Source: Desertivirga arenae (GTDB lineage: Bacteria; Bacteroidota; Bacteroidia; Sphingobacteriales; Sphingobacteriaceae). Taken from it: a DNA stretch of 64,000 nt. This document shows positions 15,276-50,218 of this stretch, in pieces. Position numbers and translations under genes: made by a program. The stretch lies in the NCBI RefSeq assembly GCF_017355785.1, contig NZ_JAFEWE010000001.1:186001-250000 (forward strand). Direction: 5' to 3'. Within the stretch, counting starts at the first letter, position 1. The number at the start of each line of letters is the position of its first letter. The notes under the pieces were generated by a model that saw only the letters and a list, made by a program, of their open reading frames with translations, had not been told where the DNA came from and made no database searches.

Positions 15276-16394
15276 CTAATTAAAGACGTTCAAACCCCAT
15301 TGATCTAACCATCCTAAAACGGGTAAGCCGTTTTCAAACTTGATAGGTAACCATACATATCTTCCATCACTCGGTTTCTTTGGTTTCCATCGATCTGCCA
15401 TGAAAATAAAAGCATCCTTTTTTCCGGCTACAGGCAGAATATAGGTACTTTGAGAATTGAAAGTAAGATCGGCACCATCTCCATTGCAGGGATTCGAGTG
15501 TTGCTTCCACGGACCGAATATACTGTCGGACGTGAAAAGTCTGGCAGCGTTAGGATCCCATCCTGTGCAACCAGAGGTGATCATGAAATACGTACCCTCC
15601 TTTTTAAAAACGGACGGGGCTTCATTATGTCCACCCGGTGCCACCCGCACATATCTTCCGGTGTAGTTCAGGTAGTCGTCTGTAAGCTCAGCAATTTGCA
15701 AGGTAAGGTTATCTTCTGAAGAATAAATATGATAAGCTTTATTGTCATCATCAACAAACAGTGTCATGTCGCGACTCATTTGCCCTCCCATAAAATCGCG
15801 TCGTACAAATAAGCCATCTTCAACAGCTTTGCGCCATTCAGGCGTCCACCAATCTTTAAAGTCAGCAACGGTTGAGGTTGATTCTTTTTGTTCTTTAGTC
15901 ATGTCCAGAGGATATTTCCCCGCATTTACCCTCGAGTTTTTCAGAAAGGTGAATTTTCCTGTTGGTGAATCTGCGATAGCAATTCCTACATTAGCAGCTG
16001 CGTATCCTTTATCCAGTAGTTCCAAATGGAAGTACATCACAAATTTTCTGCTGCGCTCATTAAAGATTACTTTCGGGCGTTCAATAATACAACCCCTTAC
16101 TATCGGGCTCTCTTTACTATCCGAAACTTCCAGCGCCACACCCTCATTTTTCCAATTATACAAGTCTTGGGAGGAATAGCACATTACACCCACCAATGCA
16201 TTATTCGAGTTTTCGCTTTTGTTTTCACCATACCAATAGTAAGTCCCGTGATGGTAAAGCACCCCACCGCCATGTGCGTTAATATGAATACCCTTGTTAT
16301 CTTTCCATATTTCACCAGGATGAAATTCCTTGTACTGTGAATAAAGGCGCAGGTTAACTAGGCATAGGGCAATGAATAAAATTATCTTTTTCAA
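15276..16394 (-). CDS. GH43 subfamily 24-like exo-beta-1,3-galactanase (TTG start)
   Basis: A 372-residue exported single-domain enzyme. It lacks the N-terminal catalytic ADP motif of ordinary GH43 and instead has INAHGGG followed by YYWYGE. This is the hallmark of GH43_24 exo-beta-1,3-galactanases such as fungal Pc1,3Gal43A and Bacteroides BT3683, where a glutamine replaces the aspartate base. Matching residues are D209 (SRDMTLF), E258 (HNEAPSV, general acid) and Q315 (FNSQSTY). Such enzymes trim the beta-1,3-galactan backbone of type II arabinogalactan. The residues about 165-205 (VADFKDWWTPEW region) are an insertion absent from the paralogue at 49223. The start must be TTG at 16394: an in-frame TGA lies just upstream and no in-frame ATG is available near the signal peptide. 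It follows a SusD gene beyond a terminator hairpin. Confidence 0.82.
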   Translation of the reverse strand: MKKIILFIALCLVNLRLYSQYKEFHPGEIWKDNKGIHINAHGGGVLYHHGTYYWYGENKSENSNNALVGVMCYSSQDLYNWKNEGVALEVSDSKESPIVRGCIIERPKVIFNERSRKFVMYFHLELLDKGYAAANVGIAIADSPTGKFTFLKNSRVNAGKYPLDMTKEQKESTSTVADFKDWWTPEWRKAVEDGLFVRRDFMGGQMSRDMTLFVDDDNKAYHIYSSEDNLTLQIAELTDDYLNYTGRYVRVAPGGHNEAPSVFKKEGTYFMITSGCTGWDPNAARLFTSDSIFGPWKQHSNPCNGDGADLTFNSQSTYILPVAGKKDAFIFMADRWKPKKPSDGRYVWLPIKFENGLPVLGWLDQWGLNVFN

Positions 16395-16430
16395 ATTCCT
16401 GATCTTATTTGCATTTCATGATCTCACCAT

Positions 16431-16464
16431 AAAAAATATCAGGGACTTCCATGAGCCCCTGATA
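16431..16464 (-). terminator. Terminator hairpin after SusD, before the exo-galactanase gene
   Basis: Perfect 8-bp stem (TATCAGGG at 16437-16444, CCCTGATA at 16457-16464). On the minus strand it is followed by six Ts (complement of 16431-16436). It starts 16 nt after the SusD stop at 16480, so full expression of the galactanase needs read-through or its own promoter. Confidence 0.75.
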
Positions 16465-16479
16465 CAATGTCTCGTTTTA

Positions 16480-18480
16480 TTATTGAGTGCGGCTTTCATC
16501 TTCAACTGCCTCTTGCCAAATTTCCCATTTAGGAGTATTTGGATCATATCCGGGATATCCAAAATTCTGGCTGAGTTGACCTTTATTATTAGCTGTTATT
16601 GCAGAATTTGGAATAGGCCAGTAGAGATTCTGTTTGCCCATCGTGAAAGTATATGTCCGATTTCCAACTTTTATTTGCTTTCCGGAATTGTAAAAGCCAT
16701 TATTATTTGTGCGGACAATTCGTTGATACCAGTAACTTCCACCATCAGGATCGGTACCGGATTGCTTATCGTAAGTATTCACATTATATACATTTCCCCA
16801 CTCATCAGGTTTGCCACTAAGGGCAAGACTGTAAGAAACACGGCTCAGCTCTACGTGACGCCATTCTTCTAGATATAGCTCCCGGGCGCGCTCATTCATT
16901 ATGTCGCCTATTGTAACAGTAGTATACAGTTGCTGACACTTAGCCCTTTTTCTAACTTCATTTACATCTGTAGCCGCCCCTGCCGGATCACCCAAATAGA
17001 ATTTTGCCTCAGCCCGAAGAAGATAAGTTTCTGCTAAGCGGTAAAGGTACCAGTCGGCATTACCACCTGTAGTTGCACCATTAAACTGATTAGAGCCAGG
17101 GGTAGCTTCAGCCTGTACATCATTCAGGAAAATTTTATAATGTGGAAAATCAAACCAGGTACGAAGTGTGTCTGCAGACAACAGGGCATTGGTGGTAGGA
17201 TGATTTAATCTGAGGTTCTGACCGAAATAAGTTGATGTCTTATCGTTATACTTCAGTGAAGTCATAGAAACCCAGTTACCAACAGCACTGCTATGTCTTA
17301 AATCTCCTGCATCCATCACACCATTTACTCCCCACATTGCGTTCTGAGCAAAATAAGTTGGACGAATGGTTCCGATACCCCGCCCAATTGCCCTCACATA
17401 ATCGTATGCTTTATTGTAATTGCTATTGTTACGAGCGTAGTTATTGACTGCAGTTTTACCATCTGGGCTCTTCACATCACCACTATTCCAGAACGGACCA
17501 AATATCCGCATCGTCAAAAAGTTTGTAAAGGACTCAGAAGTACCACGATTGGGCATGCCCATAATAACTTCCTTATTTGCTGCTATCAGTTTATTTTCAG
17601 GACGATGCAGATCCCATATAACATTTCTGGTAATTGGCCAGGTTTCAGGTTCGCCACCAGGATTGAAAGTACCGAAGTTATTCTGCATCAATTGATACCC
17701 CGATTGGTTAATAAGAATATCGGCCTGATCTTTTGCTTTTTGAAATTGCCCGGTAGCGAGGTAGCATTTTATAAGTAACTGCCTGCAAGCACCTTTGTTA
17801 ACAGTCCCAATATATGGGGAGGAGCCTTGCTCTGGAACCCATTGCACTGCAAACTCCATATCTTCCGTAATCTTATTCAGGATCGCCTCTTTTTTAGTTG
17901 AACGGTAATTTTGTTTTGGCACCTCCAATAACTTAGTGATAAACGGGATATCACCAAACTGAAAAACAAGAGACAAATAGCGGAACGACCTATGAAAATA
18001 AGCCCTCCCCAAATACGCATTTTTTGTTGCTTCACTCAATCCTGCAACTTTATCTGCATAACTGATCACTGTATTGGCATACTTGATTCCGGCATATCCT
18101 TCGTCCCAGAAATAACTGATACGATTATCATCATTGTTTGCAGCTCCGCTAGTAGGAGTGAGCTCAAGATTTACATTATCTAACAAATCCATATCAGTTT
18201 TCGAACTAACTGCGAGTTCGGAAAAAGTATACTCCGTCATAATAGGAGTAGAAATGTTAGCCCCAACTGTCCAGTAGTTACGAAGATGTCTGTCAGATGT
18301 TGCCAGTGCTGCTTGCAATCCAGATTCTGAAGTAAATGTTGCAGCCGGTTCATAGAATGATAAAGGGTCGGGTTCCAAGAACTCTCTTTTACAGCCACCC
18401 AATAGCAATGAGCTCAGTAAGCCGATAGAAAGGCTTTTCACTAAAAACAGTTTATTTGACCTTGTATATATCGTTTTCAT
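16480..18480 (-). CDS. SusD/RagB-family glycan-binding lipoprotein
   Basis: A 666-residue lipoprotein, long for SusD. It has a signal peptide with lipobox LGGC (Cys about 30), an N-terminal SusD-like_3-type region, and a C-terminal RagB/SusD region containing YRLAETYLLRAEAKF, EVRKRA and LYLEEWRHVELSR. It is predicted to bind oligosaccharide at the cell surface over its SusC partner, whose stop codon is 13 bp upstream. The nearest enzymes are the GH43_24-like exo-galactanase downstream and the GH35 and DUF2264 proteins upstream, so arabinogalactan fragments are the most likely ligand (inference). A terminator hairpin follows the stop. Confidence 0.94.
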   Translation of the reverse strand: MKTIYTRSNKLFLVKSLSIGLLSSLLLGGCKREFLEPDPLSFYEPAATFTSESGLQAALATSDRHLRNYWTVGANISTPIMTEYTFSELAVSSKTDMDLLDNVNLELTPTSGAANNDDNRISYFWDEGYAGIKYANTVISYADKVAGLSEATKNAYLGRAYFHRSFRYLSLVFQFGDIPFITKLLEVPKQNYRSTKKEAILNKITEDMEFAVQWVPEQGSSPYIGTVNKGACRQLLIKCYLATGQFQKAKDQADILINQSGYQLMQNNFGTFNPGGEPETWPITRNVIWDLHRPENKLIAANKEVIMGMPNRGTSESFTNFLTMRIFGPFWNSGDVKSPDGKTAVNNYARNNSNYNKAYDYVRAIGRGIGTIRPTYFAQNAMWGVNGVMDAGDLRHSSAVGNWVSMTSLKYNDKTSTYFGQNLRLNHPTTNALLSADTLRTWFDFPHYKIFLNDVQAEATPGSNQFNGATTGGNADWYLYRLAETYLLRAEAKFYLGDPAGAATDVNEVRKRAKCQQLYTTVTIGDIMNERARELYLEEWRHVELSRVSYSLALSGKPDEWGNVYNVNTYDKQSGTDPDGGSYWYQRIVRTNNNGFYNSGKQIKVGNRTYTFTMGKQNLYWPIPNSAITANNKGQLSQNFGYPGYDPNTPKWEIWQEAVEDESRTQ

Positions 18481-18493
18481 GTTTTGATTTCTA

Positions 18494-21400
18494 TTATAAA
18501 GTGAAGTTTAGTCCCATACTGAACATTCTGGTGGCAAGTCCACCTGTTTCAGGATCCCCGTATTCCCAGTCTTTGTTCCAAACTCCTACATTTCGGATGG
18601 ACCCAAATACTTTTGCTTTATTCATATGTAATTTTGAAATTACTGACTTTGGTAAGGAGTAGCCAAAAGCTATGCTCTCAAGACGAATAAACGAGCGATC
18701 AAATAGTTTACCAGCGCCAGTTGCTCCTACCGGACCACGGGCATCCAGACGAGCATAATCATTAGTTAAATTCTCAGGAGTCCAGTATTCTTTCCTGAAA
18801 GTATTGAATCCATAAGTAATTAATGAACCACCATTATCTCCATTTAAATATCTCCCATCTATACTCTTATGTCCCATGTAAGAATAGATACTGAATGATA
18901 AGTCGAAATTTTTATAGAACGTGAAGTTGTTTCGCAATGACCAGTTTACTGGAGGAGCGGTTTGTCCTAAAAATTCTTTATCATTATTATTATATACTGG
19001 TGTTACTGTCCCGTTAGCATTTTTTATATCATCTGCAGTATAGTTATTGGCAACTTTCGGGTCTCCCGGTACTTGCCCGTATTTTTTGGCTTCCTCGATC
19101 TCAGACGGCTGCCAGATACCGGTAACGCGATAGTCCCAGATTGCACTAATGGGATGCCCAATAAACCATCCGTTGTCCCTGTCATCCATTTCCTTTGTAC
19201 CGGTAACATTTCCGTTTGCGTCAACTACATTTTCATACTGGTAGTACAAGTGTTTAATCTCGTTCTTATTGTAAGAAAAATTCAAGGTTGTACTCCAGGT
19301 AAAATTATTCCTTTGCATGTTCTGGGTCGTTAATCCAATTTCAAAACCCCGGTTTTGTACCTCCCCAAGATTTGTTGCTATAGACGTAAAACCTGAAAAT
19401 CCAGGAAGTCGTTGATTCATAATCATATCTACTGTATTGGTCTTGTAAACATCTATGCTTCCAGAGATTTTTCCATTAAGAAAACCAAAATCCAGCCCTC
19501 CGTTAATTTGATCACTCTGCTCCCATCTTAAATTCGGATTTGCCAGACGATCGATTCTTAAATAAGGAATGTCAACTAAAGTTCCTGAAGAATTAATATA
19601 CTGTTGGCTGCCGCCTTTAACCAGATTTGCCAATTGAAGATATGGATCAGCAAGGGCACGATTTCCATTCCGCCCCCAACTAAGTCGTAATTTACCATAG
19701 CTCATTGGTTTCCAATTAAAGAATTTCTCATTAGAAAAGGTCCAACCTGCACCTACTGCCGGAAATGTAGCATATGGGTTAGAAGCTCCAAAGGCCGAAT
19801 AACCATCACGTCGAACAGATACACTTGCATTGTAGCGGTCGCTAAAAGAATAAACTAGGCGTCCCATCAATCCATCTGCAGTTTGCCGAATGTCGTTAGA
19901 ACTGAAAGAACTTTCTAGTTTTCCGGCACCATTGGTTAAGTGTAAACCCAGGGCATCTGTAGGTTGAAGGTTACGAGCCTCTACCCTATCCTGCCAATAC
20001 CTGCGCTCTTCAGCTTCATAAACAGCGGTAGCGACCAAGCGATGCTTCTGAGCAAAAGTTTTCTCCCAATTAAAGGTATTATTAATTAACCAATCAAAAC
20101 GCTTTGCCTGCTCCCTGTTCACTCCCCGATTTGTAGGAAGCGTTTCAGGACGCTGTGCAGATTCGAAGTAGCGATCGTAGAAATATTGGTAACGTGGTTG
20201 CGCGTTAAATGAATAGGTAATATTGAATGGAAATTTCACCTGAGCAGTAAAAATACTGTTAAGTACCGTGTATCCCTTTTCAAGATCCAAATACTGTCGT
20301 TCGAATTCATAATTATATCCCCTCTTCACAGTATTTCCCATAGGGAACATTGCCAAATTTCCTGCATCATCTCTATAATTTGCATATGGACTATTGCGTA
20401 GTTGATTATTCTCCCAATAGTTGGTTGAGAGGCCTGGTTGTAAATCACCATCACTGCGATCCTGGAAATTAACGTTTGCTCCAAATTGAAGCCAGTCAGT
20501 TACCCTCCCGTCTACCTTCAAATTAGAACGTATCGCCCTATAAACATTTCCCTGTACAGCTCCTTCATTGCTAAGATATCCAGCAGACATATAATAATTA
20601 ATTCTGTCACTTGCACCTGATACACTGGCGTTATAATCTTTATTAAAACCCTCCCGGAATGTTTGGTCATACCAGTCAAATGTTTTGCCAGACAAATAAT
20701 TTTGAAGAACTGCATCCTCTAAACCAAGTCTTTTCGCATAAATGCTCCATTCCGATTCACCTGTAGTATTAGTAGTATAGGCTTTCCATTGATCAAGGGT
20801 TATGCCTTGCAATCTATCGGGGCGGTCAAAGTAACCAGGCTTAGTTGCCGTAGTACCAGTTTTATGAGCCTCGTAATTACCCGTGGTTGTGTTAAGCCCA
20901 TAAGTTGGTGTTTTATACCAGTCCTCACGATACTGCATGTACTGTTCAGGATTAAATGACTCTGGATAGGCGCTTTTCGTATTTAAAGAAAAATTGGAGG
21001 TAAAGTTTATTACAGGTTTCCCTTGTCGTCCTTTTTTCGTTGTAATGATAAGGACGCCATTAGCAGCCTTAGATCCATACACTGCGGCAGCGGCAGCATC
21101 CTTAAGAATGTCAATTTGACCAATATCATCGGGGTTGATCTCCGACAATTCACCAAAGAACGGCATGTTATCCACCACAATTAAGGGATCGTTATGCCCG
21201 CCTGCAGTATAAACTGAACGCTGTCCACGTAATTGAATGCTACCTCCTCCTTTTGCCGAAGGATCCATACCCACACTTACCCCAGGAGTTCCCCGAAGAA
21301 TATCCTGTACGGTAGGTGGATTTTCGTTTGCGATGTTATCCGGCCGGATTTGAACCACTGCCCCTGTCAGATCCTTCTTACGCATGGTACCATATCCAAC

Positions 21401-21763
21401 TACCACAACTTCGTTAAGGGCCTTTGAATTTGAATTAAGCTTAATCAGTAATTCAGTCTGGTTCCCGACGTTGATATTTTGAGAATCGTACCCCATATAA
21501 GAAACGATTAATACAGCCGGATCAGGCACCTGCAACCTGAATGCGCCTTTCACATCAGTGCTTGTTCCGGCAGAGGTATTCTGGATTTTTATGGCTACCC
21601 CTATAAGGGGTTCTCCGGTCTTTGCATCCGTTACCGTACCTCGTATCATCCTGCTTTGGGCAAGCCCAACTACTGGCAATAAAAGGTAACAACAGGATAT
21701 TAAAAACAGGCGTATAATTCTTGTAGCTCTGTTTTCCCTAAAAAATAAATTCTGGCTTATCAT
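18494..21763 (-). CDS. SusC/RagA-family TonB-dependent outer-membrane transporter
   Basis: A 1089-residue SusC homologue. It has a leader ending GLAQ (about residue 36), a carboxypeptidase-regulatory-like domain (about 40-112), TonB box LNEVVVVGYGTMRKKDLTGAV (VVVGYG about 118-123), a plug with ILRGTPGVSV and IVVDNMPFFG, and a long barrel ending SMGLNFTL. Together with the SusD encoded 13 bp downstream it forms an outer-membrane oligosaccharide importer. It is the first gene of its transcription unit and has a 397-bp upstream region with a perfect inverted repeat. No anti-sigma-interacting STN domain is present, in line with control by the local HTCS and not an ECF sigma/anti-sigma pair. Confidence 0.95.
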   Translation of the reverse strand: MISQNLFFRENRATRIIRLFLISCCYLLLPVVGLAQSRMIRGTVTDAKTGEPLIGVAIKIQNTSAGTSTDVKGAFRLQVPDPAVLIVSYMGYDSQNINVGNQTELLIKLNSNSKALNEVVVVGYGTMRKKDLTGAVVQIRPDNIANENPPTVQDILRGTPGVSVGMDPSAKGGGSIQLRGQRSVYTAGGHNDPLIVVDNMPFFGELSEINPDDIGQIDILKDAAAAAVYGSKAANGVLIITTKKGRQGKPVINFTSNFSLNTKSAYPESFNPEQYMQYREDWYKTPTYGLNTTTGNYEAHKTGTTATKPGYFDRPDRLQGITLDQWKAYTTNTTGESEWSIYAKRLGLEDAVLQNYLSGKTFDWYDQTFREGFNKDYNASVSGASDRINYYMSAGYLSNEGAVQGNVYRAIRSNLKVDGRVTDWLQFGANVNFQDRSDGDLQPGLSTNYWENNQLRNSPYANYRDDAGNLAMFPMGNTVKRGYNYEFERQYLDLEKGYTVLNSIFTAQVKFPFNITYSFNAQPRYQYFYDRYFESAQRPETLPTNRGVNREQAKRFDWLINNTFNWEKTFAQKHRLVATAVYEAEERRYWQDRVEARNLQPTDALGLHLTNGAGKLESSFSSNDIRQTADGLMGRLVYSFSDRYNASVSVRRDGYSAFGASNPYATFPAVGAGWTFSNEKFFNWKPMSYGKLRLSWGRNGNRALADPYLQLANLVKGGSQQYINSSGTLVDIPYLRIDRLANPNLRWEQSDQINGGLDFGFLNGKISGSIDVYKTNTVDMIMNQRLPGFSGFTSIATNLGEVQNRGFEIGLTTQNMQRNNFTWSTTLNFSYNKNEIKHLYYQYENVVDANGNVTGTKEMDDRDNGWFIGHPISAIWDYRVTGIWQPSEIEEAKKYGQVPGDPKVANNYTADDIKNANGTVTPVYNNNDKEFLGQTAPPVNWSLRNNFTFYKNFDLSFSIYSYMGHKSIDGRYLNGDNGGSLITYGFNTFRKEYWTPENLTNDYARLDARGPVGATGAGKLFDRSFIRLESIAFGYSLPKSVISKLHMNKAKVFGSIRNVGVWNKDWEYGDPETGGLATRMFSMGLNFTL

Positions 21764-24723: not shown

Positions 24724-26772
24724 TTAATAATTCAATACCTGAGTCCTTCTATCACGAAATGTAATTTGAATTTTTTGATTTCCAATTTCCTGCGAACGCT
24801 CAACTTTACGAACAGGTAAAAGTTCATCTTTCTTCCACTTCTCTCCTGATCGCTTCCATAACAATAAACTTGCGTAAATAATTCCCTCATTCCTGTTTCC
24901 AGTAAACGTATCAGAAGTATTAATTACCGAACTACTATCCTTTACCGGATTCAAACCAGTTGTTTCTACAACAGCCAATTTGTTCCAACCACTTAAAGGA
25001 ATCATAGCAAGCTGGTATATCCCATTATCAACTACTTTTACTTGCCTTCGCTTAACTCGAAGTGTCTTAATGTTAATTTTACCGTTAATTGCAGGTAATG
25101 AATAATGTCCCAGCCGAAGGTCGATCGAGTCTGAGCCAATAAGCCGATCAACCCTAAGAATTCCCCCTGGTAATGGCATCTCTGCGAGATCAATTTTTAC
25201 GGTAGAATCAGAAGCCAGAACCGACTTACGAAAATAAAATCCATCCTCATACTTGGAAAAATTAAAAACGCGTAAGGCTTCCCACTCGCCTTTTCTATTT
25301 TTGAAAGTATAGTTCATTGAGACCTCCCCATTCTTTCCATCCGCTTGCCAGGGAAAAGCGCTATTATATGAAAGTCTGTTGTAGTTTTCCGTTCCCTGAT
25401 AAACTCCAACGCTTTTACTATTACACCACGCTCTTATTTCAGAAGCCCCTATTGAGGCGTAATTTGTAATGAGGATATTTGATGAAGAGGCAAACTTGTT
25501 ATAAACTTTATTTTCTTCGAATTTGCTCTCCCAAGGTCCTTCATTTTCCGTTTGGTTCCAGAAAGAACTGTTTTCCGGCACCAGAAGTCCAAGAAAAAGT
25601 TTACCAAGCCAGAAAGCACTTCCACGACAACTATAGGTTTGAACGGCAGGTTCAAAAGCACCATAAAAGCCAAGGGTAGGAATATTATTTTCTAAGAAGT
25701 CGGGATTTTGCAAAAACTGGAGGATAGAGCCAGAAGCGATACGACGCATCCATCCATAGTTAATCTCAGCTCTATTGGTAAAACCCATTAATGGAAATGG
25801 AACAGGGGCCCCCATCCGGTAAGAAATACTTCTTCCCCACATGATCATCTCTCCCTTTCTGGAGAACGTATAAGGATAGTTGTCCTGAAGATCATCAAAA
25901 TTTACAGCAAGCTGTTTCGCGTAGTCGGGATAATACTTTTGACCAAAATACTCAGACCATATCTTTCCATACATCTGAAAAGCCCACATACTATAGTAGT
26001 CGTAATAAGGGCTGTCATGATACCATCCTTGTCCCTTATACTGATCGAGCGTTTTTTGCAAAAGATCCTTCAAATAGTTTTCATTCACCTTATAGCCCTG
26101 TTTCTTAAAGAAACTGAGAATCATAATATTGAAATAACGCCAGTTCATTCCAATTGTAGGTCCTTCGCCATAGCTTAACATTGTTTTCGCAAGAGCATCT
26201 TTGGTCTTAGGTTGCAAAGGATCCCAGAAAATCTCAGGAGCAGTAAGCAATGATACAGCAAGGCCCCCAAACTCAACCAGTTTCTGGCTTGGGCCTCCTT
26301 TTGCCCCCAAAGGCTCTATGTAAATATCACTTCCCGGAACGAGCATTTTTTCTATCTGGTACCGATAGTAATCTCCAACTTTCACCCTATTTATTTCAAG
26401 ATCAGGATGTTCTTTGAGCAAGGGTCCGGCAATGAACATTGTTCGACATAAACCTTCCATATTCTCCGTAGCATTAGGTTTACCATCTCTCGGATAACTC
26501 TTGCCACTCTGCTTTGGAAATTTCATTGGATCTTCAATGCTCTCTATATAACTAAAAGCTCCATTCAGCAAATATAATCCGGCCTCTTTCCAATGCTTCC
26601 TGGTCATACCCGTAAACGGACTTAACTTGAAATCCGGATTAGATACGTTGAATATCCTGTTACCGGGTTGTTTCAAAGTGAAAATACTATCAGATGTAAG
26701 AATCTGAGAGCGTGAAATATTACAAAGTACACAAAATATCGCTGTGCACCATAGCTTGTATCCTAAATTCAT
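24724..26772 (-). CDS. DUF2264 protein, possible GH154-type exo-beta-glucuronidase
   Basis: A 682-residue exported protein with leader about 1-22. Residues about 50-400 match the DUF2264 (alpha/alpha)-barrel style: LSPFTGMTRKHW, NATENMEGLCRTMF, IGMNWRYFNIMIL and GWYHDSPYYDYYSMWAFQ. The remaining C-terminal third is beta-rich. I associate DUF2264 proteins with CAZy family GH154, which contains beta-glucuronidases found in arabinogalactan loci; I cannot confirm the family assignment here. Removing beta-glucuronic acid caps would fit the neighbouring GH35 and exo-galactanase genes. The gene begins only 43 bp after the HTCS stop, so it may share a transcript with its presumed regulator, which is unusual for HTCS genes. 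Catalytic residues were not assigned. Confidence 0.82.
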   Translation of the reverse strand: MNLGYKLWCTAIFCVLCNISRSQILTSDSIFTLKQPGNRIFNVSNPDFKLSPFTGMTRKHWKEAGLYLLNGAFSYIESIEDPMKFPKQSGKSYPRDGKPNATENMEGLCRTMFIAGPLLKEHPDLEINRVKVGDYYRYQIEKMLVPGSDIYIEPLGAKGGPSQKLVEFGGLAVSLLTAPEIFWDPLQPKTKDALAKTMLSYGEGPTIGMNWRYFNIMILSFFKKQGYKVNENYLKDLLQKTLDQYKGQGWYHDSPYYDYYSMWAFQMYGKIWSEYFGQKYYPDYAKQLAVNFDDLQDNYPYTFSRKGEMIMWGRSISYRMGAPVPFPLMGFTNRAEINYGWMRRIASGSILQFLQNPDFLENNIPTLGFYGAFEPAVQTYSCRGSAFWLGKLFLGLLVPENSSFWNQTENEGPWESKFEENKVYNKFASSSNILITNYASIGASEIRAWCNSKSVGVYQGTENYNRLSYNSAFPWQADGKNGEVSMNYTFKNRKGEWEALRVFNFSKYEDGFYFRKSVLASDSTVKIDLAEMPLPGGILRVDRLIGSDSIDLRLGHYSLPAINGKINIKTLRVKRRQVKVVDNGIYQLAMIPLSGWNKLAVVETTGLNPVKDSSSVINTSDTFTGNRNEGIIYASLLLWKRSGEKWKKDELLPVRKVERSQEIGNQKIQITFRDRRTQVLNY

Positions 26773-31215: not shown

Positions 31216-34695
<3,480 letters not shown>

Positions 34696-37764: not shown

Positions 37765-37864
37765 TAATCGCATTCCTTCTCCGGCGTTCTTTTAACCTTC
37801 GTCGATAAATAGATCTAAATTTCCTAAGCGATACAGACTTTTGTATCAACAAACAGATCAAAGA

Positions 37865-38596: not shown

Positions 38597-38620
38597 TAAA
38601 ACTATGGGGACCAAAAATCA

Positions 38621-41837: not shown

Positions 41838-41945
41838 CCTCAATTAGATTAAGAAGTGGGTATTACAAAGTAACATTACGAAACCGCATTAAATATTGAC
41901 TCTCCTCCCTAAAGTATCAGATATATGTATTCGAATCCACCTGAT

Positions 41946-43718
41946 CTACTGCCAACCCGGGTTCTGTCCGAGGTTTGGGTTTAGTTGGATCTGCCCTGTT
42001 GGGATCGGGTTCAGGTAATTCTTGTCTTTATCAAATTTCCTGTTTGCAATGGGATCCACTATTATGAATCCGTTCGCATCTACAACGGGTGTCAGCTTTT
42101 TCCTTTTTCCTGCAGCACCAGTATATGTTGTTTCAAATTCAGTTCCTTTAAACTTTACCCCCAATACAGGCTCCTTCAATTCGATATGAGCTCTAAACCA
42201 TCTTTTAAGATCGTCGAGTCTGAATCCTTCTGCATTCAGCTCCACAGTTCGCTCCCTTCTGATCTCTGTCAACATATCTAGGCCGTTCGCCACAGCAAAT
42301 GCATTGCTCAGTGCCGGCATAGTTTTGTTAACCCGATTGCGCACCAGGTTCAATGATCTGTTCAAGTCGGCATCAGCAATAGCACCGTTCTTTTCAAAAA
42401 CTGCTTCAGCGTAATTTAGAAGAACTTCAGCATAACGAATAACCGGATAATCGAACCCCTCCTGATTATCCGGAACCTGCCTTTCCGCTACAAACCTGTA
42501 GGTATTATAACCTGAAGTACTGTTGTTAAAAGGATCAAAAGGGGATTCCCGCGCATTCTGTTTATCCTGAGGGCTCCAATTCCAATTTATCTGCCAATTC
42601 GCATTACCACTCCAGTAATAGCCTCCGTCCATATGAAACTGATACTTCATTCTGTTATCACGGTTTTCATATTCGCTTTTCAAAGTACCATAGCCCTTAA
42701 AAACTGCCGATTTTTCTATGGGCAAACCATCCTGAGCAAGGAACAGGTCGGCAAATTTCTTACTTGCATCCGATCCAAAGTTGGCGAAACTTACATTCCG
42801 CCTTATCTGTCTTAAGGTCTGATCATACCGATTTGCAAGTATATACTCCTTATTAGCTGATTTTCCAATACTGGCGGGGTTTGATTTTTGATTCTCCAGT
42901 ATAAACAAATACTTCTGGGCCGAATCGCCCAAGGCAGGTGGTGCAAATAACTCGTACTCGTTACTGGCAATAACCTCAGTACTACTGGCAATTGCCTTAT
43001 CAAGTAATAAGGATACCCTTGCAGCTCCCTCAGGCTTACCCTCCTTCAGATTCCCTTCAGTATACTTCTGCCAGGTTGCTTCATATAGGGCTACCCTGCT
43101 TAGGAAGCCTTGTGCAGCTCCTTTGGTAATACGGCCTTTTTCAGTAACTTTTGATTCGACAGGCAGATCTGGAATGGCCTCCTCCAAATCTTTAATAATG
43201 AAATCTACTACTTCGCTTCTTGAATTACGACTTGCATTGAGCTCTGGCGAACCGAGATTCAAGGGTTTCTCAACAATTACGGACGGCCCATAAGCAGTTA
43301 ACAGATATTCGAAATAAACATAAGCCCTGAAAAACTTTGCTTCAGCTACATAAAGTTTTATTTCTTCACGGTTGGGATAGGCCTCAGCCTTGGCCAACAG
43401 GTAATTGATTGACCGGGTATAGGAATATGCGCTGTCGAAATTTGCATCTATAACCCCTTTTGTATTTATACCTCTGCTCACGTTATCCAGACTGGTCCCC
43501 AGGTCATTAGGGCCGTGATGTCCTTCCGTTCCAAAAGTCCTTAAATAAGTATAGAACTTGTTGGCCCCCAGCTTGAAATCGTTTGGCGATTTCCAAAAAG
43601 TAGCGTCAGAGATACGGTCCAGCGGTTCAAGCTCCAGACTTTTGTTACATGCATACTGACTTATTGCAATGAATGCTCCAGTAAGTATTATTATATGATT
43701 TAAAAGTGATTTTTTCAT
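41946..43718 (-). CDS. SusD/RagB-family glycan-binding lipoprotein
   Basis: A 590-residue lipoprotein with a signal peptide ending SQYAC (Cys about 24). The N-terminal LELEPLDRISDATFW and C-terminal blocks YAEVLLNYAEAVFEKNG, VRNRVNKTMP, EIRRERTVELNAEGFRLDDLKRW and the ending NLGQNPGWQ are typical SusD features. It starts 40 bp after its SusC partner's stop, a wider gap than in the other pairs. No enzyme lies directly downstream; the nearest upstream carbohydrate protein is the alginate-lyase-like gene at 47346, so the ligand is less certain than for the other pairs. Confidence 0.94.
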   Translation of the reverse strand: MKKSLLNHIIILTGAFIAISQYACNKSLELEPLDRISDATFWKSPNDFKLGANKFYTYLRTFGTEGHHGPNDLGTSLDNVSRGINTKGVIDANFDSAYSYTRSINYLLAKAEAYPNREEIKLYVAEAKFFRAYVYFEYLLTAYGPSVIVEKPLNLGSPELNASRNSRSEVVDFIIKDLEEAIPDLPVESKVTEKGRITKGAAQGFLSRVALYEATWQKYTEGNLKEGKPEGAARVSLLLDKAIASSTEVIASNEYELFAPPALGDSAQKYLFILENQKSNPASIGKSANKEYILANRYDQTLRQIRRNVSFANFGSDASKKFADLFLAQDGLPIEKSAVFKGYGTLKSEYENRDNRMKYQFHMDGGYYWSGNANWQINWNWSPQDKQNARESPFDPFNNSTSGYNTYRFVAERQVPDNQEGFDYPVIRYAEVLLNYAEAVFEKNGAIADADLNRSLNLVRNRVNKTMPALSNAFAVANGLDMLTEIRRERTVELNAEGFRLDDLKRWFRAHIELKEPVLGVKFKGTEFETTYTGAAGKRKKLTPVVDANGFIIVDPIANRKFDKDKNYLNPIPTGQIQLNPNLGQNPGWQ

Positions 43719-43758
43719 CTGATTTGATTCAGTAAAAGATTTGCAATTGCCTCAAACA

Positions 43759-46700
43759 CTACAATGTAAGATTAACACCTACGTTTACCAGCCGGTAAAA
43801 TGGATAACGTTGAATACCACCTGAGATAGTTCTGGTTTGTTCAGGATCCCATCCATCTTTTATCTTACTCCATTCCCAGATATCGCTTCCAGAAACATAA
43901 AGCCTCAAATTTTCAATCTTGGCTCGCTGGGTTAAAGCCTTCGGGAAGGTATATCCCAGGGAGATATTTTTCAGGCGCAAGTAAGCTCCGTTCTCCACAG
44001 ACCAGGAAGAGATCTGGTAGTTATACCCGTTATAATTCGGATTGTTAGGCGTCCCAACTGACAGTAATGGATAGTAAGCATCAGGATTTTCAGGGGTAAA
44101 TGTTTTTCCCACCCATTGGTTTGTTACGCCCTGACCAATGTTTCCAAAAGGAACTCTCCAGTTTCCATCCCTGAAAATTGTCCTTTTGCCCACTCCCTGG
44201 AAGATTGCAAGGAAATCAAACCGTCCATAACTTGCACTTAAATTTATTGCATAAGTATATCTTGGATCATTCCTTCCCAGGTAGATGATATCATCCGGGA
44301 CAGTTAAAACCCCGTCACCATTCTGATCCACGAACATGTTATCCCCTATACGCGCACCTCCCCCTGTTGTGGGTATCGGCACGGCAATATTGCTGTTTGC
44401 CTTCTGCAAACGTGTATTATATTCGGTACGCGTAGCTTCATCTTTAATACGGCCGGCATATTCCAGTCCGAAATAGGACCCTATCGGATAGCCTTCAACA
44501 TGAGGATCTGCCGCAGAGCCCGTTGTAAATCCTGCTTTGGTTAATAGCTGGCCACCGATGGAAACAAGTTTATTATCATTATCAGACAAGGTTCCTCCTA
44601 TCGAATACTTGAACTTACCAATCTTGTCCTTCCAGTTTAAAGAAAGGTCCCAACCCCATACGCGTAAATGCCCGATATTGGTTTTAGGAGCATTCGCACC
44701 GAGCAGTGCAGAAACACTGCTGTTCGTTAGCATATTGCGATTATTCTTGATAAAATAATCAAAGCTTCCTGATAGGCGGCTGTTTAACACACCAAAGTCT
44801 AGTCCTAAGTTAGTAGTTTCAACTTTTTCCCATGCCCTGTCGATACTTACCAATTCACGGTTAGGCCCAACATAAACGGCCGGACTATTGCCAAGAATAG
44901 GAAAATTAGCACTGGTTGGGCCTCCGGTTGCTGCAACGGTAAGGAGCTGAATATAGTCATAGTAACCAATTCCACTTTGATTACCGATAGTTCCGTTAGA
45001 CAATCTGAGCTTCAGATCGCTAATAAACCTAAAATTTTTCATGAAAGGCTCCTGGGTAATTCTCCAGGCAGCAGACAAGCCGTAAAATGGAGACCATCTT
45101 TTACTTGCAATAAATCTGGAAGTTCCATCATACCGGGAGTTGGCTTCGAAAAGGTACTTATTTTTATAAGCGTAGTTGAAACGGCCAAAATAAGAGCCAA
45201 TTGCCCAATGATTCTGTGATTCACCGTTAACTTTAGTAGTATTGTCTCCGATACCCAATCCTAAGGACGGTACATCATCATAAGCCTGGTAGGATGACCT
45301 GGTATTGTAGGCATTAAATTCGTCCCTTTCATAGTTTGTACCAAGAGTTAGCCCGAAATCATGTACTGCATTAAAGGTATTGGTGTAATTGAAATACGCA
45401 TTCAAATTGTAATAAGAATCTTTGACGAACCTGCGGTCATAATAACTATTTTGCTGGGAAGGGTTTGCCGCAGAAGAAATAGCTGTTTCGGCGTAATTAT
45501 ACCACTCCGTCAGTGTTTTTGATTGTTCTTTTATATCGGTCCCGTTCCAATTGTAACTGGCCTGCCCAACAAGGTCCAAATGTTTGCTGAACTTGTAAGT
45601 CGATAATACGCTCGTATAAATCCTGTTATTATACTCTTTATTTTCGCCCCCTAATTCTATTAGCCAGTTGGGCGTATACTGCGTTCCCCAACCATAAGGC
45701 TTTCCGTTGATCGTAGATGTCGGAAATCCCGGCTGGGAGAAATTACTGAGGGCATTACCCACACGAGTAGGCTGAACGATGTCGTTCTTTTCCAGTGATA
45801 TGTTCGTTTCAACCTTGAAGTTATCAGAAAAGGCGTAATCATAGTTTAAACGTGCCGTGTAACGTTTGTTGGAATTTTCACCAAATTGAAGCAAGCTATT
45901 ATCATTTAAATAGCCTAAAGACAAACGGTACCCCATTTTTTCCCCTCTGGCAGATAAGCTTAAATTATGTTGCGAGGTAGAAGCATTATCGAATAACACG
46001 TCCTGCCAATCGGTAAAGAAAAATGTGAAGTCTTTTACATCCCCAAAACCGATAGTGTTAGGCTCTTTTGTAAGATCAATATAACCACTTGCCGGGGGAT
46101 CGAGGTACTTTTCAGCCAAACGGTACCACAACCAGGTCTTATCAAGATTTACTGTAGAATTATTGACCTGCGCTTCCAATAAAAGTGGCCCCCACTGTTG
46201 TGTAGACAATAGAGAAGGCTGCAGGCCTATCCTTTTCTGGGAAAGTGAAGCATCGTATTGAATAGAAGGTTTCCCGGCTTTGGCCCGTTTAGTAGTGATA
46301 AGCACTACCCCTCCCGCAGCCCGGGATCCGTAGATCGCGGCAGAAGCATCTTTCAAAAATGACATTGATTCGATATCATTGGGGTTGATAGAATTCAAGC
46401 CTGAAGGGCTTACTAAAGGTACACCATTTACAATAATCAAGGGAGGCGCTCCATTAACCGATGAGGCACCGCGGATCTGTAAATCCCAGTCTTCCCTGCC
46501 GGGTGCGCCAGAAGAACGTGTTACTACAACTCCGGGCACCTCTCCCTGTAGGGCTGCAAGGGGATTGGCCATTGACCCACGATCTTTAAAAACTTCGGAT
46601 CCTATCTGCGCCACAGAGCCACTTAAAGTCTCCTTCTTTCTGCTTCCATAGCCCACAACCACCACCTCCTGCAAATTCCGGTTGTCTTGTTCAAGGATAA

Positions 46701-47001
46701 CCTGTATCGGCCTGCTGAAATCGGCGACAATACTAACCGTCCGATAGCCTACGCTACTTATCTCCAGCACACTTCCCTCTTCCGCATCAATTTTAAATTC
46801 ACCGTTAGGATTAGTGGCAGCCCCCTTGTTGGTGCCTTTTACTTTAACAGCTGCTCCAATTACGGGATATTTCGTTCCTGCCTCAGTTACTTTTCCAGTT
46901 ACCTGTCTGTTCTGTGCGTAACTATGACAGTAAAATAAAACACAAAAAAGAAGAGCAAGAATGCCGCTTTTCCTGTGCTCATGTAAATCATACTTTGTCA
47001 T
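43759..47001 (-). CDS. SusC/RagA-family TonB-dependent outer-membrane transporter
   Basis: A 1080-residue transporter. The ATG at 47001 is used in place of a TTG at 47016, since it begins the basic n-region before the hydrophobic leader (ILALLFCVLFYCHSYAQ). Next come the carboxypeptidase-regulatory-like domain (about 33-105), TonB box LQEVVVVGYGSRKKETLSGSV, a plug with ALQGEVPGVVV and IIVNGVPLVSPSG, and a barrel ending VGVNLTL. It forms an importer with the SusD 40 bp downstream and has its own 344-bp upstream region, so this pair is a separate transcription unit. Confidence 0.95.
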   Translation of the reverse strand: MTKYDLHEHRKSGILALLFCVLFYCHSYAQNRQVTGKVTEAGTKYPVIGAAVKVKGTNKGAATNPNGEFKIDAEEGSVLEISSVGYRTVSIVADFSRPIQVILEQDNRNLQEVVVVGYGSRKKETLSGSVAQIGSEVFKDRGSMANPLAALQGEVPGVVVTRSSGAPGREDWDLQIRGASSVNGAPPLIIVNGVPLVSPSGLNSINPNDIESMSFLKDASAAIYGSRAAGGVVLITTKRAKAGKPSIQYDASLSQKRIGLQPSLLSTQQWGPLLLEAQVNNSTVNLDKTWLWYRLAEKYLDPPASGYIDLTKEPNTIGFGDVKDFTFFFTDWQDVLFDNASTSQHNLSLSARGEKMGYRLSLGYLNDNSLLQFGENSNKRYTARLNYDYAFSDNFKVETNISLEKNDIVQPTRVGNALSNFSQPGFPTSTINGKPYGWGTQYTPNWLIELGGENKEYNNRIYTSVLSTYKFSKHLDLVGQASYNWNGTDIKEQSKTLTEWYNYAETAISSAANPSQQNSYYDRRFVKDSYYNLNAYFNYTNTFNAVHDFGLTLGTNYERDEFNAYNTRSSYQAYDDVPSLGLGIGDNTTKVNGESQNHWAIGSYFGRFNYAYKNKYLFEANSRYDGTSRFIASKRWSPFYGLSAAWRITQEPFMKNFRFISDLKLRLSNGTIGNQSGIGYYDYIQLLTVAATGGPTSANFPILGNSPAVYVGPNRELVSIDRAWEKVETTNLGLDFGVLNSRLSGSFDYFIKNNRNMLTNSSVSALLGANAPKTNIGHLRVWGWDLSLNWKDKIGKFKYSIGGTLSDNDNKLVSIGGQLLTKAGFTTGSAADPHVEGYPIGSYFGLEYAGRIKDEATRTEYNTRLQKANSNIAVPIPTTGGGARIGDNMFVDQNGDGVLTVPDDIIYLGRNDPRYTYAINLSASYGRFDFLAIFQGVGKRTIFRDGNWRVPFGNIGQGVTNQWVGKTFTPENPDAYYPLLSVGTPNNPNYNGYNYQISSWSVENGAYLRLKNISLGYTFPKALTQRAKIENLRLYVSGSDIWEWSKIKDGWDPEQTRTISGGIQRYPFYRLVNVGVNLTL

Positions 47002-47345
47002 AATGTCTGATGTCAATAAATTTTAGAAATATGTTGGTTTTAAAAGGTTAGATTCCTCATACTATTCTGTTACCTGATTTAATACGGTTCTTCCTCGTGA
47101 AGAAAGCTTATATCTTACTATTGAAAATAAGACAAACACTTATTCCTTTCATACTCACACATCTTCAACTTCGTGCTTTTTCTGGCTAACGTTGAATCAT
47201 AAATTGGTGGCAGTACCAATACTCCCCTTACAATTCTCGATTTTTCAGTAAGAGAAGGAACAACATAAGAAACGCTGAAGTGAGGCTTTCTCCCTTCAGC
47301 GTTACTCTTATCCCATCGTTTATTTGTGGTTAATAATAATTGATC
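47002..47345. other. Intergenic region upstream of SusC
   Basis: These 344 bases lie between the alginate-lyase-like gene stop and the SusC start. They contain the hairpin at 47271-47303 and presumably the SusC/SusD promoter, which I could not locate by motif. No gene was seen. Confidence 0.55.
47271..47303 (-). terminator. Hairpin terminator after the alginate-lyase-like gene
   Basis: A perfect 10-bp stem (AACGCTGAAG at 47271-47280, CTTCAGCGTT at 47294-47303) around a 13-nt loop, 43 nt after the stop at 47346. The minus-strand tail (TCTTATGTTG) is only modestly T-rich, so termination efficiency is uncertain. Confidence 0.55.
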
Positions 47346-49010
47346 TTAAGGAGCTACAAAAGCCCATTGCTGATTATTGCTCGTACCCGAATTCCAGAAT
47401 TGCATATTTGTACCATCAGCAGTACCTCCCCCGGTATCCAGGCATTTGCCATTAGCCCTGTTAAAAATTTTGAAATAGCCATTGCCCAGATCTATAATCT
47501 GCCATTGCTGATTTGGACTGCTGCCATTCGCCCATTGATGAACCGTGGAGCCGTTCGCTGTATTATTGTAACTATCCAGACATTTACCTCCGGTAACACA
47601 ACTTAATTTATAATAGCCATTGCTGTAGCTAACTGTCCATTTCTGGTTATTACTAGTCCCGTCAGGATATTGCTTAACGTTAGCACCATCTACCGTTGAA
47701 CCGGCATTATCAAGCATCTTTCCCGTAGCCCTGTTCTGCAGGCTGTAAGTTCCGTTAGCTATAGGTCTCGAGGAAGCATCGCGATAGAACGTCAGAGAAC
47801 CATAACCCGGTTGGTCGAAAGTTGTGGCGTGTCCGCCAGGACCGCCCTCAGGGCGATGGATCGCTGCTCTCTCTGCCACATTTGTAACTGTTAGACCCAT
47901 CCGGCCTGCATAATGTCCGTAAACCATTTCATAGATCGGGCGGATTTCCCCTCTGCCGGCTTCTGATACTACAGTGTGGGATTGAGGAGCACAATTCTGC
48001 CCCGAGCCCCAGTTATAGGTAGTAAAGGGAACACTGTTACCATTGTTATACCTTGCTACATATTCAGCACCTTGCATAAATCTGCTACTGCTATAACTAT
48101 AAAGATCGATTCCCTGGTTCCAGGCCATTTCGCAGATGGCGCCCATCAAGCCTACCCCTAACTGGGCATGTCCCTGATCCCGCCCGCTCTCCTGCCACTG
48201 TCCTAGCCCGCCTGCATGGACGAAGGGTACGGCTTTTAAAATTGACCCATTTCCAGCACCTGTTTTAAAATAATTGACAGCCTGGTCAATCTTTGCCTGA
48301 TCATCAGCAAAAATTCCAATAGCGAGCACCGAAGCCATATTGCAGAGGTCCCAGTTTGCCCAGTAATTTGTAATACAAGCATCGTTATGATTTACAAGGA
48401 ACTGGTTGTTCATCGGGTAAAAGATATTTACCAGCATGTTACTGAAATTAGTAACATTAAAGCCACTGTAATTGCGCATCATCTCGCCGGCATTAGCCAG
48501 CTGATAACCGAAAATACCCGCGGCCAGGAAACGGTCAGCGTTTCCACCGATCGAAGTTAATGTACTTGACCAATGGTTTAAAATATCACGTGCTTTGTTG
48601 CCATTAGCGGTATTTCCACTAACCCTGTATATCAGTGCATTCTGGTATGCTGCTGCTACGTCATTGTAAAGCAACCCTACATTATCCCCTGTTCCACCTC
48701 TGATAATTGTTGCCGTGGCCCTTGAGGTCCAGGTAGCTGATGAATGCGGACTGGCAAGCAATTTATCCCAGCTTCCTTTCCAGGGCTGCGCACCCGCATT
48801 CACTTTCACCTTCATTCGTTCAAAATCAGCGTCGGTATGTAAAATTCCACCAACATGGTAAATTGCCAGAGTTTTCGAGCTCCCTCCTTTGGCGGAATGT
48901 ATAACTTCTTCTGGTTCTTCTGCATTTAATTGTACAGTTTTCTTACATGATGTTCCTGCTAATAAAAGGAAAATGCAGGAAATTAAAATACTTAATGGTT
49001 TGTGTCTCAT
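47346..49010 (-). CDS. Alginate-lyase-superfamily lipoprotein with C-terminal ricin-type lectin
   Basis: A 554-residue lipoprotein. The ATG at 49010 is chosen over a TTG at 49115, since it directly starts a lipoprotein signal (lipobox AGTSC). Residues about 55-400 resemble the Alginate_lyase (PF05426, PL5-like) helical toroid: NYWANWDLCNMASVLAIGIF, ESGRDQGHAQLGVGLMGAICEMAW and YGHYAGRMGL. Residues about 415-554 form a ricin-type beta-trefoil with three repeats, each ending in NNQKW, NQQWQ or NNQQW and containing GKCLD or GKMLD. The lectin would tether the enzyme to a galactose- or xylose-type glycan. Lyase activity on a uronic-acid polymer is the family expectation, but the substrate is not established. 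The gene lies between two SusC/SusD systems, isolated by hairpins on both sides. Confidence 0.83.
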   Translation of the reverse strand: MRHKPLSILISCIFLLLAGTSCKKTVQLNAEEPEEVIHSAKGGSSKTLAIYHVGGILHTDADFERMKVKVNAGAQPWKGSWDKLLASPHSSATWTSRATATIIRGGTGDNVGLLYNDVAAAYQNALIYRVSGNTANGNKARDILNHWSSTLTSIGGNADRFLAAGIFGYQLANAGEMMRNYSGFNVTNFSNMLVNIFYPMNNQFLVNHNDACITNYWANWDLCNMASVLAIGIFADDQAKIDQAVNYFKTGAGNGSILKAVPFVHAGGLGQWQESGRDQGHAQLGVGLMGAICEMAWNQGIDLYSYSSSRFMQGAEYVARYNNGNSVPFTTYNWGSGQNCAPQSHTVVSEAGRGEIRPIYEMVYGHYAGRMGLTVTNVAERAAIHRPEGGPGGHATTFDQPGYGSLTFYRDASSRPIANGTYSLQNRATGKMLDNAGSTVDGANVKQYPDGTSNNQKWTVSYSNGYYKLSCVTGGKCLDSYNNTANGSTVHQWANGSSPNQQWQIIDLGNGYFKIFNRANGKCLDTGGGTADGTNMQFWNSGTSNNQQWAFVAP

Positions 49011-49045
49011 TTTGTGGTTTATATAATGATTAGATAAGAGTAGAC

Positions 49046-49062
49046 CGTACGATGTGCGTACG
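49046..49062. promoter_or_regulatory. Paired CGTACG palindromes, candidate operator
   Basis: CGTACG occurs at 49046-49051 and 49057-49062, 11 bp apart (one helical turn), and together the two form a 17-bp inverted repeat. It lies 36-52 bp upstream of the lipoprotein start at 49010, a good place for a regulator site. Confidence 0.35.
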
Positions 49063-49143
49063 TAATAAGGACACCCATCCTTAGGTTTAATACTCTTAAT
49101 CTCAAATATTTTCAAACAAACCCGATCACTAACAGCCAGTACT

Positions 49144-49185
49144 AAAAAGAAAAAGAGATCAGCCCTTTTAAGACTGACCTCTCTT
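49144..49185 (-). terminator. Rho-independent terminator at the end of the double-SusC/SusD operon
   Basis: On the minus strand an imperfect stem (arms 49154-49162 and 49174-49184, with a 2-nt bulge) is followed by a T-rich run of TTTTTCTTTTT type (complement of 49144-49153). It lies about 40 nt past the stop of the exo-galactanase gene at 49223 and separates this operon from the lyase-lectin gene. Confidence 0.75.
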
Positions 49186-49222
49186 CCAAATTTCCTAAAA
49201 TTATATTTCCTTTTACGGCCTG

Positions 49223-50218
49223 CTACTTTTTTACCTCAGCTTTCCCTGTTTTGAAGTTGACCTTCCAGGGTTTGGGCTCTGGTAATTTTAATTCACCGCC
49301 GCCTATTTCCAGTGGCATCCATAAATACCTGGAATCCCATTGGCTTGCCGGTTTCCATTGATCAGCCATAAAGATCACAGTAGTCGCCTTTGATCCTGCA
49401 ACCTTAAGCATCATAGTTGATTGTGACTGATAAGTGTTGGTTTCAGGAGGAGCAATATGTTTAAATTCTGACCAGGGACCAGAAAGCGAAGTTGCCGTAG
49501 CGTATTTATTCGGATTGGGCCGCCAACCGGTCAAAGCTGAACCTATCGCATAGTACAAACCTTTATACTGAATAATGGCCCCACCCTCCAAAGGTGCATT
49601 GATATAGGCAGTTTCCTTTTCTACATTCAGGTAATCATCAGATAGTCTGGCAATATAAAAACCTTTGGTCGGACGGCTTTCAAATATCAGGTATGCGCTT
49701 CCGTCGTCATCAATAAATTGTCCAATATCCCGGCTTTCAAGTCCTAAAGGCCTGAAACTTTTAACGAACGTATATTCACCATCTGGTTTGTCACTTACCG
49801 CGATGCCCACCCTTGCAAACCTGTATTTTGCGTCATCAAGATGCATATACATTACAAATTTCTTCGACTTCTCATTATAATATACCTTTGGCCGTTCCAA
49901 TACCCATTTCTCTCCCAAATTCTCGGGGTCGCTGAAAGGTATTTTTTTCAGGAACTTCCAGTCCGATAAGTTTTCAGAAGAATAAACGCCCACGTAACGA
50001 AAGGAAGGATCATTATCTTTAGCCCTGTATTCTCCGAACCAATAATATACCTTTCCAAGCTTGATAATACCGCCACCATGAGCTTGAATATGGTTCCCCA
50101 TGTTATCAGGCCAGACACTACCCGGTTTGATTAATCCTGATTTACCTTTTTGTGCATAGCTGCTTAATTGTAGCAGTGTAAGAATGGTTATAAGCCTGAA
50201 ATATTTGTTTAAATTCAT
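49223..50218 (-). CDS. GH43 subfamily 24-like exo-beta-1,3-galactanase
   Basis: A 331-residue exported enzyme. The ATG at 50218 gives a compact signal peptide (MNLNKYFRLITILTLLQLSSYAQ); an in-frame ATG at 50260 would add 14 residues and is possible. It carries the GH43_24 pattern: IQAHGGGI and YYWFGE in place of the standard ADP base motif, D164 (SRDIGQFIDDDG), general acid E211 (PLEGGAI) and Q266 (YQSQSTM), the glutamine proposed as base in Pc1,3Gal43A. The overall resemblance to that enzyme is closer than for the paralogue at 15276. It would release galactose, or side-chain-bearing galactose, from beta-1,3-galactan. It is the last gene of the SusC-SusD-SusC-SusD-lipoprotein operon and is followed by a terminator. 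Confidence 0.86.
   Translation of the reverse strand: MNLNKYFRLITILTLLQLSSYAQKGKSGLIKPGSVWPDNMGNHIQAHGGGIIKLGKVYYWFGEYRAKDNDPSFRYVGVYSSENLSDWKFLKKIPFSDPENLGEKWVLERPKVYYNEKSKKFVMYMHLDDAKYRFARVGIAVSDKPDGEYTFVKSFRPLGLESRDIGQFIDDDGSAYLIFESRPTKGFYIARLSDDYLNVEKETAYINAPLEGGAIIQYKGLYYAIGSALTGWRPNPNKYATATSLSGPWSEFKHIAPPETNTYQSQSTMMLKVAGSKATTVIFMADQWKPASQWDSRYLWMPLEIGGGELKLPEPKPWKVNFKTGKAEVKK

Follow-up and report, generated by a model that had tools for sequence, protein, structure and literature searches.

The question raised by this stretch of the Desertivirga arenae genome (6.19 Mb) is whether its glycan-degrading genes serve the breakdown of a polysaccharide alone or of the glycoprotein that carries it. 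The window, meaning the whole stretch of 64,000 nucleotides analysed, covers positions 186,001 to 250,000 of contig NZ_JAFEWE010000001.1 (C12:186001-250000 in our numbering); coordinates below are window-based unless marked C12. The initial annotation read it as a type II arabinogalactan locus defined by two exo-beta-1,3-galactanases of the GH43_24 type, here called P1 and P2. That reading missed the DUF6055 genes, and a trans-4-hydroxyproline (Hyp) operon lies beyond the window, to its left; the neighbourhood is thus broader than an arabinogalactan polysaccharide utilisation locus (PUL), and these two additions shift the likely substrate from polysaccharide to whole glycoprotein. We consider it probable that the left half of the window (~1-34.3 kb), together with about 37 kb leftward of it, forms a locus for the utilisation of plant hydroxyproline-rich glycoproteins (HRGPs), that is, arabinogalactan proteins (AGPs) and probably extensins, drawing on both sugar and protein. 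The case is built on gene content, motifs and conserved co-location, from which we infer every activity, substrate, mode of regulation and route of transport proposed below.

A hydroxyproline operon and predicted peptidases beside the glycan genes

The Hyp operon occupies C12:171.6-176.5 kb as one run of genes, encoding a DHDPS-like protein, an aldehyde dehydrogenase (ALDH), a 4-hydroxyproline 2-epimerase and a D-amino-acid-oxidase (DAO)-type protein. The 2-epimerase, D-Hyp oxidase, 1-pyrroline-4-hydroxy-2-carboxylate (HPC) deaminase and alpha-ketoglutarate semialdehyde (KGSA) dehydrogenase types are therefore all present together, with DAO, DHDPS and Aldedh assigned at the family level only. 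The epimerase scores 605.9 bits (cut-off 376), has both catalytic-type cysteines (motifs CGHG and SPCGTG) and is the genome's only gene of the proline-racemase family (Pfam). Proline racemase and trans-3-Hyp dehydratase were rejected as identities, each falling under its own cut-off. Also in C12:166001-186000 (L105) are an AraC regulator, an Xaa-Pro aminopeptidase-like M24 peptidase and a dipeptidyl peptidase IV (DPPIV)/S9 peptidase, and C12:146001-166000 (L150) holds aminopeptidase P, a POT peptide transporter, a second DPPIV, an M1 peptidase, DUF5695, GH97 and a GH127-LamG protein.

The locus also has two DUF6055 genes, both on the minus strand. The first (13723-15144; Pfam DUF6055 487.8 bits, cut-off 27) is separated by 131 bp from P1 and encodes a predicted secreted gluzincin peptidase, MEROPS M106-like and Svx-related. 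The second runs from 1662 to -2099, so that its N-terminal part (1-1662) falls in the window and the gene crosses the left edge; it combines F5/8-like domains, a DUF6055 domain with HEITH, Big_2 and a CHU_C type IX secretion signal, and adjoins a PorP/SprF gene. In the first protein the site HELGH-x27-E (H187, E188, H191, E219) is invariant in 14 of 14 DUF6055 homologues, and a fungal DUF6055 protein has been assigned to MEROPS M106 (PMC11241649). Svx itself is a zinc gluzincin by assay, with the site HExxH-x(22)-E, and presumably cuts extensin (PMC10815107). The match of DUF6055 to the Svx/AvrXca model NF040510 is partial, at 60.8 bits against a cut-off of 625, and because of this we regard DUF6055 as a relative rather than a member of that equivalog. 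Taken together, these features suggest that DUF6055 is a zinc-dependent peptidase.

Under the glycoprotein reading, sugar would go first: P1, GH35, GH2, GH43, GH127 and the DUF2264 dehydratase would dismantle the side chains and the hydroxyproline-linked arabinose, after which the two secreted DUF6055 peptidases would cut the deglycosylated core. Glycopeptides could then be imported by the SusC/D pairs designated a and f, hydroxyproline would be freed by DPPIV, aminopeptidase P and M1 peptidases, and the Hyp operon, through its 2-epimerase, D-amino-acid oxidase, DHDPS-like deaminase and aldehyde dehydrogenase, would carry it to 2-oxoglutarate. P2 would belong to a second PUL of arabinogalactan type, at 41.9-60.4 kb.

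Linkage across related genomes

The linkage of these parts was followed first in a discovery set of 150 relatives, on which the 40 kb threshold was itself chosen. The epimerase is present in all 11 genomes with a DUF6055 protein over the cut-off, compared with 32 of 150 overall. It lies no more than 40 kb from a GH43_24-like gene in 6 of 17 genomes, where 0.34 are expected (5/16 with the source genome removed, simulated P ~1e-5), and no more than 40 kb from DUF6055 in 4 of 11, where 0.23 are expected (3/10 with the source genome removed, P=9e-4). The same associations were seen in 301 genomes sampled from the order, where the epimerase accompanies DUF6055 in 65 of 65 genomes against 174/301 overall (Fisher 6e-19). 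Linkage was counted there in those new genomes that have listed positions, at the same 40 kb threshold: DUF6055 and the epimerase are linked in 13/42 (0.74 expected, P=2e-13; five genera), GH43_24 and the epimerase in 8/74 (1.2 expected, P=3e-5; six genera).

The content of the epimerase loci points the same way. DAO, DHDPS and ALDH are co-located with the epimerase in 29, 30 and 27 of 30 loci, respectively, and these loci are rich in peptidases and GH127-like genes when set against 20 arbitrary 20-kb stretches: DPPIV/S9 in 14 (v 0), aminopeptidase P, M1 and DUF885 in 10 each (v 0 in each case), GH127-like in 9 (v 1) and DUF5695 in 5 (v 0). The other great source of 4-hydroxyproline is animal collagen or gelatin, at which the protein-directed part of the locus might instead be aimed, and the Hyp operon and X-Pro peptidases would suit collagen equally well; the conserved neighbours, however, are plant-glycan enzymes (GH127/GH146 type, GH43 and GH43_24), and the proteins scanned included none of collagenase type, so that a collagen-directed function seems very improbable.

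Individual relatives show how the pieces fit together. G384 and G275 each have one block of ~45 kb uniting GH43_24, the Hyp operon, GH127-LamG and DUF6055, in the order SusCD, GH43_24, HTCS (hybrid two-component system), DUF5695, AraC, DHDPS, ALDH, epimerase, DAO, DUF885, S9, GH127-LamG (70%), GH43, SusCD, DUF6055 (57-58%) and pyrroline-2-carboxylate reductase (60%). Since the last of these adjoins DUF6055 in both genomes, we tie to the same system the window's predicted delta1-pyrroline-2-carboxylate reductase (8114-9115, minus strand; NF004793 395.8 bits, cut-off 322), which may, for example, return delta1-pyrroline-2-carboxylate to proline. In G161 DUF6055 lies directly upstream of the Hyp operon and shares its strand; in G177 and G192 GH43_24, a GH127-like gene and the SusCa/SusD2a type all stand beside Hyp genes; and G256 has GH43_24, GH2 (60%), S9, M24, GH127 (68%) and Hyp genes within 26 kb.

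Several other elements travel with these loci. DUF5695 (~900 aa; L150:9723-12452) recurs near Hyp operons in L108, L159, L161, L165, L166, L167, L251, G384, G275 and G161 and is a candidate new enzyme of glycoprotein breakdown. In several relatives, two small proteins without Pfam matches (313 and 236 aa; L105:10565-12238) are kept behind SusC/D pair f and close to DUF6055; they may be surface binding lipoproteins. A further GH127 gene (51%; L263:11885-13939) is found ~46-48 kb left of the window, and the cluster may reach further in that direction.

A number of observations weigh against the glycoprotein reading. The linkage tests assume random gene placement and treat genomes as independent though they are related, which makes the P values too small while leaving the direction clear. 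DUF6055 and the epimerase are far apart in many genomes. The 27 GH43_24 loci of the relatives, taken over ~10 kb, contain no SusCf or SusCa of the DUF6055 module and no close GH43mod orthologues (GH43mod being the modular GH43 described below), and 80 named GH43_24 loci, through which gut and insect species were surveyed for the association, have neither DUF6055 nor Hyp genes in 10 kb of flank, a span at which looser linkage could escape notice. The P1-DUF6055 adjacency is seen in the source genome only and, not being conserved, was dropped as the key link; the conserved link runs via the Hyp operon. A profile of the 14 DUF6055 proteins found no credible match in the PDB, and an AlphaFold model made without an alignment reached a pLDDT of 36.8 and lends no support to a peptidase. 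The authors of the Svx study argue, moreover, that Svx is unable to accommodate beta-glycosylated AGPs and favour extensins (PMC10815107), and for that reason extensin-type targets may suit the DUF6055 proteins better.

Two alternatives follow from these points. The DUF6055 proteins might be binding proteins, or hydrolases of another kind, that retain the metal site, as the want of structural and profile matches and the partial, sub-threshold Svx match would allow; with the HExxH and distal glutamate invariant throughout the homologues and a fungal member already placed in MEROPS, we think this improbable. It might also be that two ordinary type II arabinogalactan PULs abut, by chance, an independent island for peptide and hydroxyproline degradation, the halves having different substrates. 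Within 10 kb, the GH43_24 and DUF6055 loci of relatives do for the most part differ in gene content, and the epimerase and GH43_24 are frequently far apart, being linked in no more than the 8 of 74 genomes given above. Against such an accident, linkage exceeds expectation ~7-18x in two separate samples and in six genera, the halves are bridged by GH127-like, GH43mod and SusCa/SusD2a genes, and five genomes (G384, G275, G177, G192 and G256) unite GH43_24, GH127-like genes and the Hyp operon in single stretches of 20-50 kb; chance abutment therefore carries little of our credence.

Returning to HRGP utilisation, we lean, if only slightly, to a larger proposal: that this is an undescribed kind of locus, widespread in its Bacteroidota family, by which HRGPs would be eaten whole, DUF6055 being a dedicated family of core peptidases, SusC/D importing the glycopeptides and linked genes burning the Hyp. 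The open-access full-text literature, outside which most subscription journals lie, yielded nothing linking hydroxyproline epimerase with arabinogalactan and nothing tying hydroxyproline, peptidase and arabinofuranosidase to a PUL. Plant walls and gums are rich in AGPs and extensins; bacterial studies have followed their sugars, and breakdown of the Hyp-rich core is largely open. The locus offers a concrete, testable pathway that joins the stripping of glycans to a candidate peptidase for the core and to the catabolism of hydroxyproline. It also suggests what DUF6055 may do, and leads to the prediction that plant glycoproteins supply these bacteria with both carbon and nitrogen.

P1, P2 and their glycan partners

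The two enzymes on which the initial annotation rested are minus-strand open reading frames, and what it said of them has held up. P1 (15276-16394; 372 aa, TTG start) and P2 (49223-50218) score 70.1 and 53.5 bits, respectively, with Pfam GH43 (cut-off 32.2), which, with the PDB scores, rules out a chance-reading-frame artefact. Both have signal-peptide-like N-termini; the longest frame for P2 is 49223-50260 (345 aa), of which 50218 is the second ATG, and this start is preferred because the signal peptide begins there. As had been claimed, both lack the ADP base motif and have the AHGGG, SRD, acid Glu and SQ pattern, along with ERPKV. The best PDB matches of P1 are 6EUG/6EUH/6EUI (E=5e-149), 6EUI being BT3683; P2 is closest to Pc1,3Gal43A (7BYS, E=6e-68) and next to Ct1,3Gal43A. 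In Pc1,3Gal43A the fully conserved GH43_24 subsite -1 consists of E57, E102, R103, Y126, D158, E208, W229 and Q263, of which E208 is the catalytic acid and Q263 the base (PMC7939473). All eight residues are kept in P1 and all eight in P2, a set that the genome's typical GH43 proteins do not keep. The phylogeny groups P1 and P2 with characterised GH43_24 proteins, split from the genome's other GH43 with support of 1.00, and puts P1 with BT3683 in a clade of support 1.00; the node uniting P2 with Pc1,3Gal43A is supported at only 0.59. PDB matches, active-site residues and tree thus confirm both proteins as genuinely of GH43_24 type, with exo-galactanase activity predicted. A third BT3683-like GH43_24 gene (G000:C40:200735-201814) adjoins an HTCS gene at a separate site in the genome.

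P2 differs at subsite +1. N180, which in Pc1,3Gal43A contacts O5 of the +1 galactose (PMC7939473), is T in P2, and T226 is L; across its clade position 180 is mostly T, A or S and position 226 is L or M. Given the weak node and the differing +1 subsite, the +1 preference of P2 and its family-level relatives, in which N180 is lost and T/C226 changed, could differ from that of Pc1,3Gal43A, possibly a new specificity inside GH43_24. These changes would fit an exo-galactosidase preferring another linkage, rather than an exo-beta-1,3-galactanase; with subsite -1 intact and characterised exo-beta-1,3-galactanases as its top PDB matches, this is a doubtful but serious alternative.

The wider claim of a type II arabinogalactan locus stands in part. 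GH35, GH2, GH127, modular GH43 and DUF2264 genes do surround P1 and P2 on the same strand, all minus, and recur in relatives. The predicted GH35 beta-galactosidase (22161-24512) is closest to 6EON (E=2e-227), and the predicted beta-L-arabinofuranosidase GH127 (5532-7934), in which catalytic, middle and C-terminal domains are all present, is closest to 6EX6; it was rejected as an aceric acid hydrolase (492 bits, cut-off 950), and its homologues adjoin the Hyp operon in several genomes. GH43mod (1971-5516) has the ADP base and F5/8C and LamG domains, with orthologues recurring in hydroxyproline and DUF6055 loci (71% in G014), and a predicted LacZ-type GH2 beta-galactosidase lies at 31216-34344. 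The relatives' GH43_24 loci include GH35 in 9/27, DUF2264 in 4/27 and GH2 in 4/27 (random loci 0/20), matches of GH43mod, GH35 and GH2 at 25-35% identity in the context map being family-level and not counted as orthology. The 64-kb window contains no endo-galactanase, the strong GH30_2 gene being on another contig.

DUF2264 (24724-26772, minus strand; Pfam 253 bits) calls for a further revision. This family (formerly CAZy GH154) has been reported to consist of glucuronate dehydratases, and its reclassification as such, the founder BT3677 included, has been proposed (PMC12269599). The window protein matches 9o4u at E=4e-12, its nearest solved relatives include two named dehydratases, and we predict a beta-glucuronate dehydratase rather than a hydrolase. 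Such an enzyme needs a GH88/GH105 partner; no gene of that type occurs within the window, and such genes are found elsewhere in the genome.

Known systems and the rest of the window

The arabinogalactan PULs of Bacteroides thetaiotaomicron reportedly include the exo-galactanase BT3683, BT3677, GH127 and GH35. The present locus resembles them in a GH43_24 near BT3683, a GH35 near 6EON, GH127, a two-domain DUF2264, SusC/D and a hybrid regulator, and has in addition the DUF6055 genes, a pyrroline-2-carboxylate reductase and the adjoining Hyp operon with X-Pro peptidases.

The HypBA cluster of Bifidobacterium longum likewise aims GH127 and GH43 at hydroxyproline-linked arabinose, but consists of three glycosidases and an ABC sugar importer, the available portion of that source mentioning neither peptidase nor hydroxyproline catabolism (PMC7263609). 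Svx/AvrXca of plant-pathogenic bacteria shares the HExxH...E zinc site and a presumed plant extensin target (PMC10815107), but is a lone secreted virulence factor, whereas DUF6055 here sits with SusC/D and glycosidases. Chondroitin PUL25 of B. caccae combines a DUF2264-type glucuronate dehydratase with predicted peptidases, and so provides a precedent for glycan-plus-protein targets, although its glycan is chondroitin and the part of the report at hand mentions no hydroxyproline pathway (PMC12269599). In Latescibacteria, HRGP breakdown has been proposed in silico from glycosidases alone (PMC4454575).

The remaining genes have the features of SusC/D-based PULs, with five tandem pairs in the window and pair f to its left, glycan enzymes and an HTCS regulator (26816-30931, minus). 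Importer a comprises a SusD-like_2 lipoprotein (9144-10529) and a SusC (10543-13557), both minus; its type occurs near Hyp operons in G014, G016, G051, G062, G072, G177 and G192. Pair b (16480-21763, minus) follows P1. P1 and P2 belong to at least two PULs, rather than to the single locus originally described, parted by an unrelated plus-strand island (35882-39795) with a LytTR two-component pair and dioxygenase-like and pirin/cupin-like genes, no glycan genes, and an adjoining trypsin/PDZ gene; the island is either an unrelated insertion or the boundary between the two PULs. A PAS-only protein without an output domain is encoded at 34696-35547.

The second PUL opens with SusD/SusC pair c (41946-47016), followed by an Alginate_lyase-domain protein with a ricin-B lectin (47346-49115) adjoining P2, then P2, a small lipoprotein-like gene and SusD/SusC pairs d and e (50854-60432); the three pairs, the Alginate_lyase-domain gene and P2 are all on the minus strand. 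No direct link of this PUL to the Hyp part was found in the source genome; 37 kb separates a P2 orthologue from the epimerase in G065. A protein encoded at the right edge of the window (60901-63975) combines CBM3 and LamG domains with a type IX sorting tail. The Alginate_lyase-ricin protein has a 74% orthologue beside the P2 orthologue of G026 (L122), which makes it a possible lyase partner for P2.

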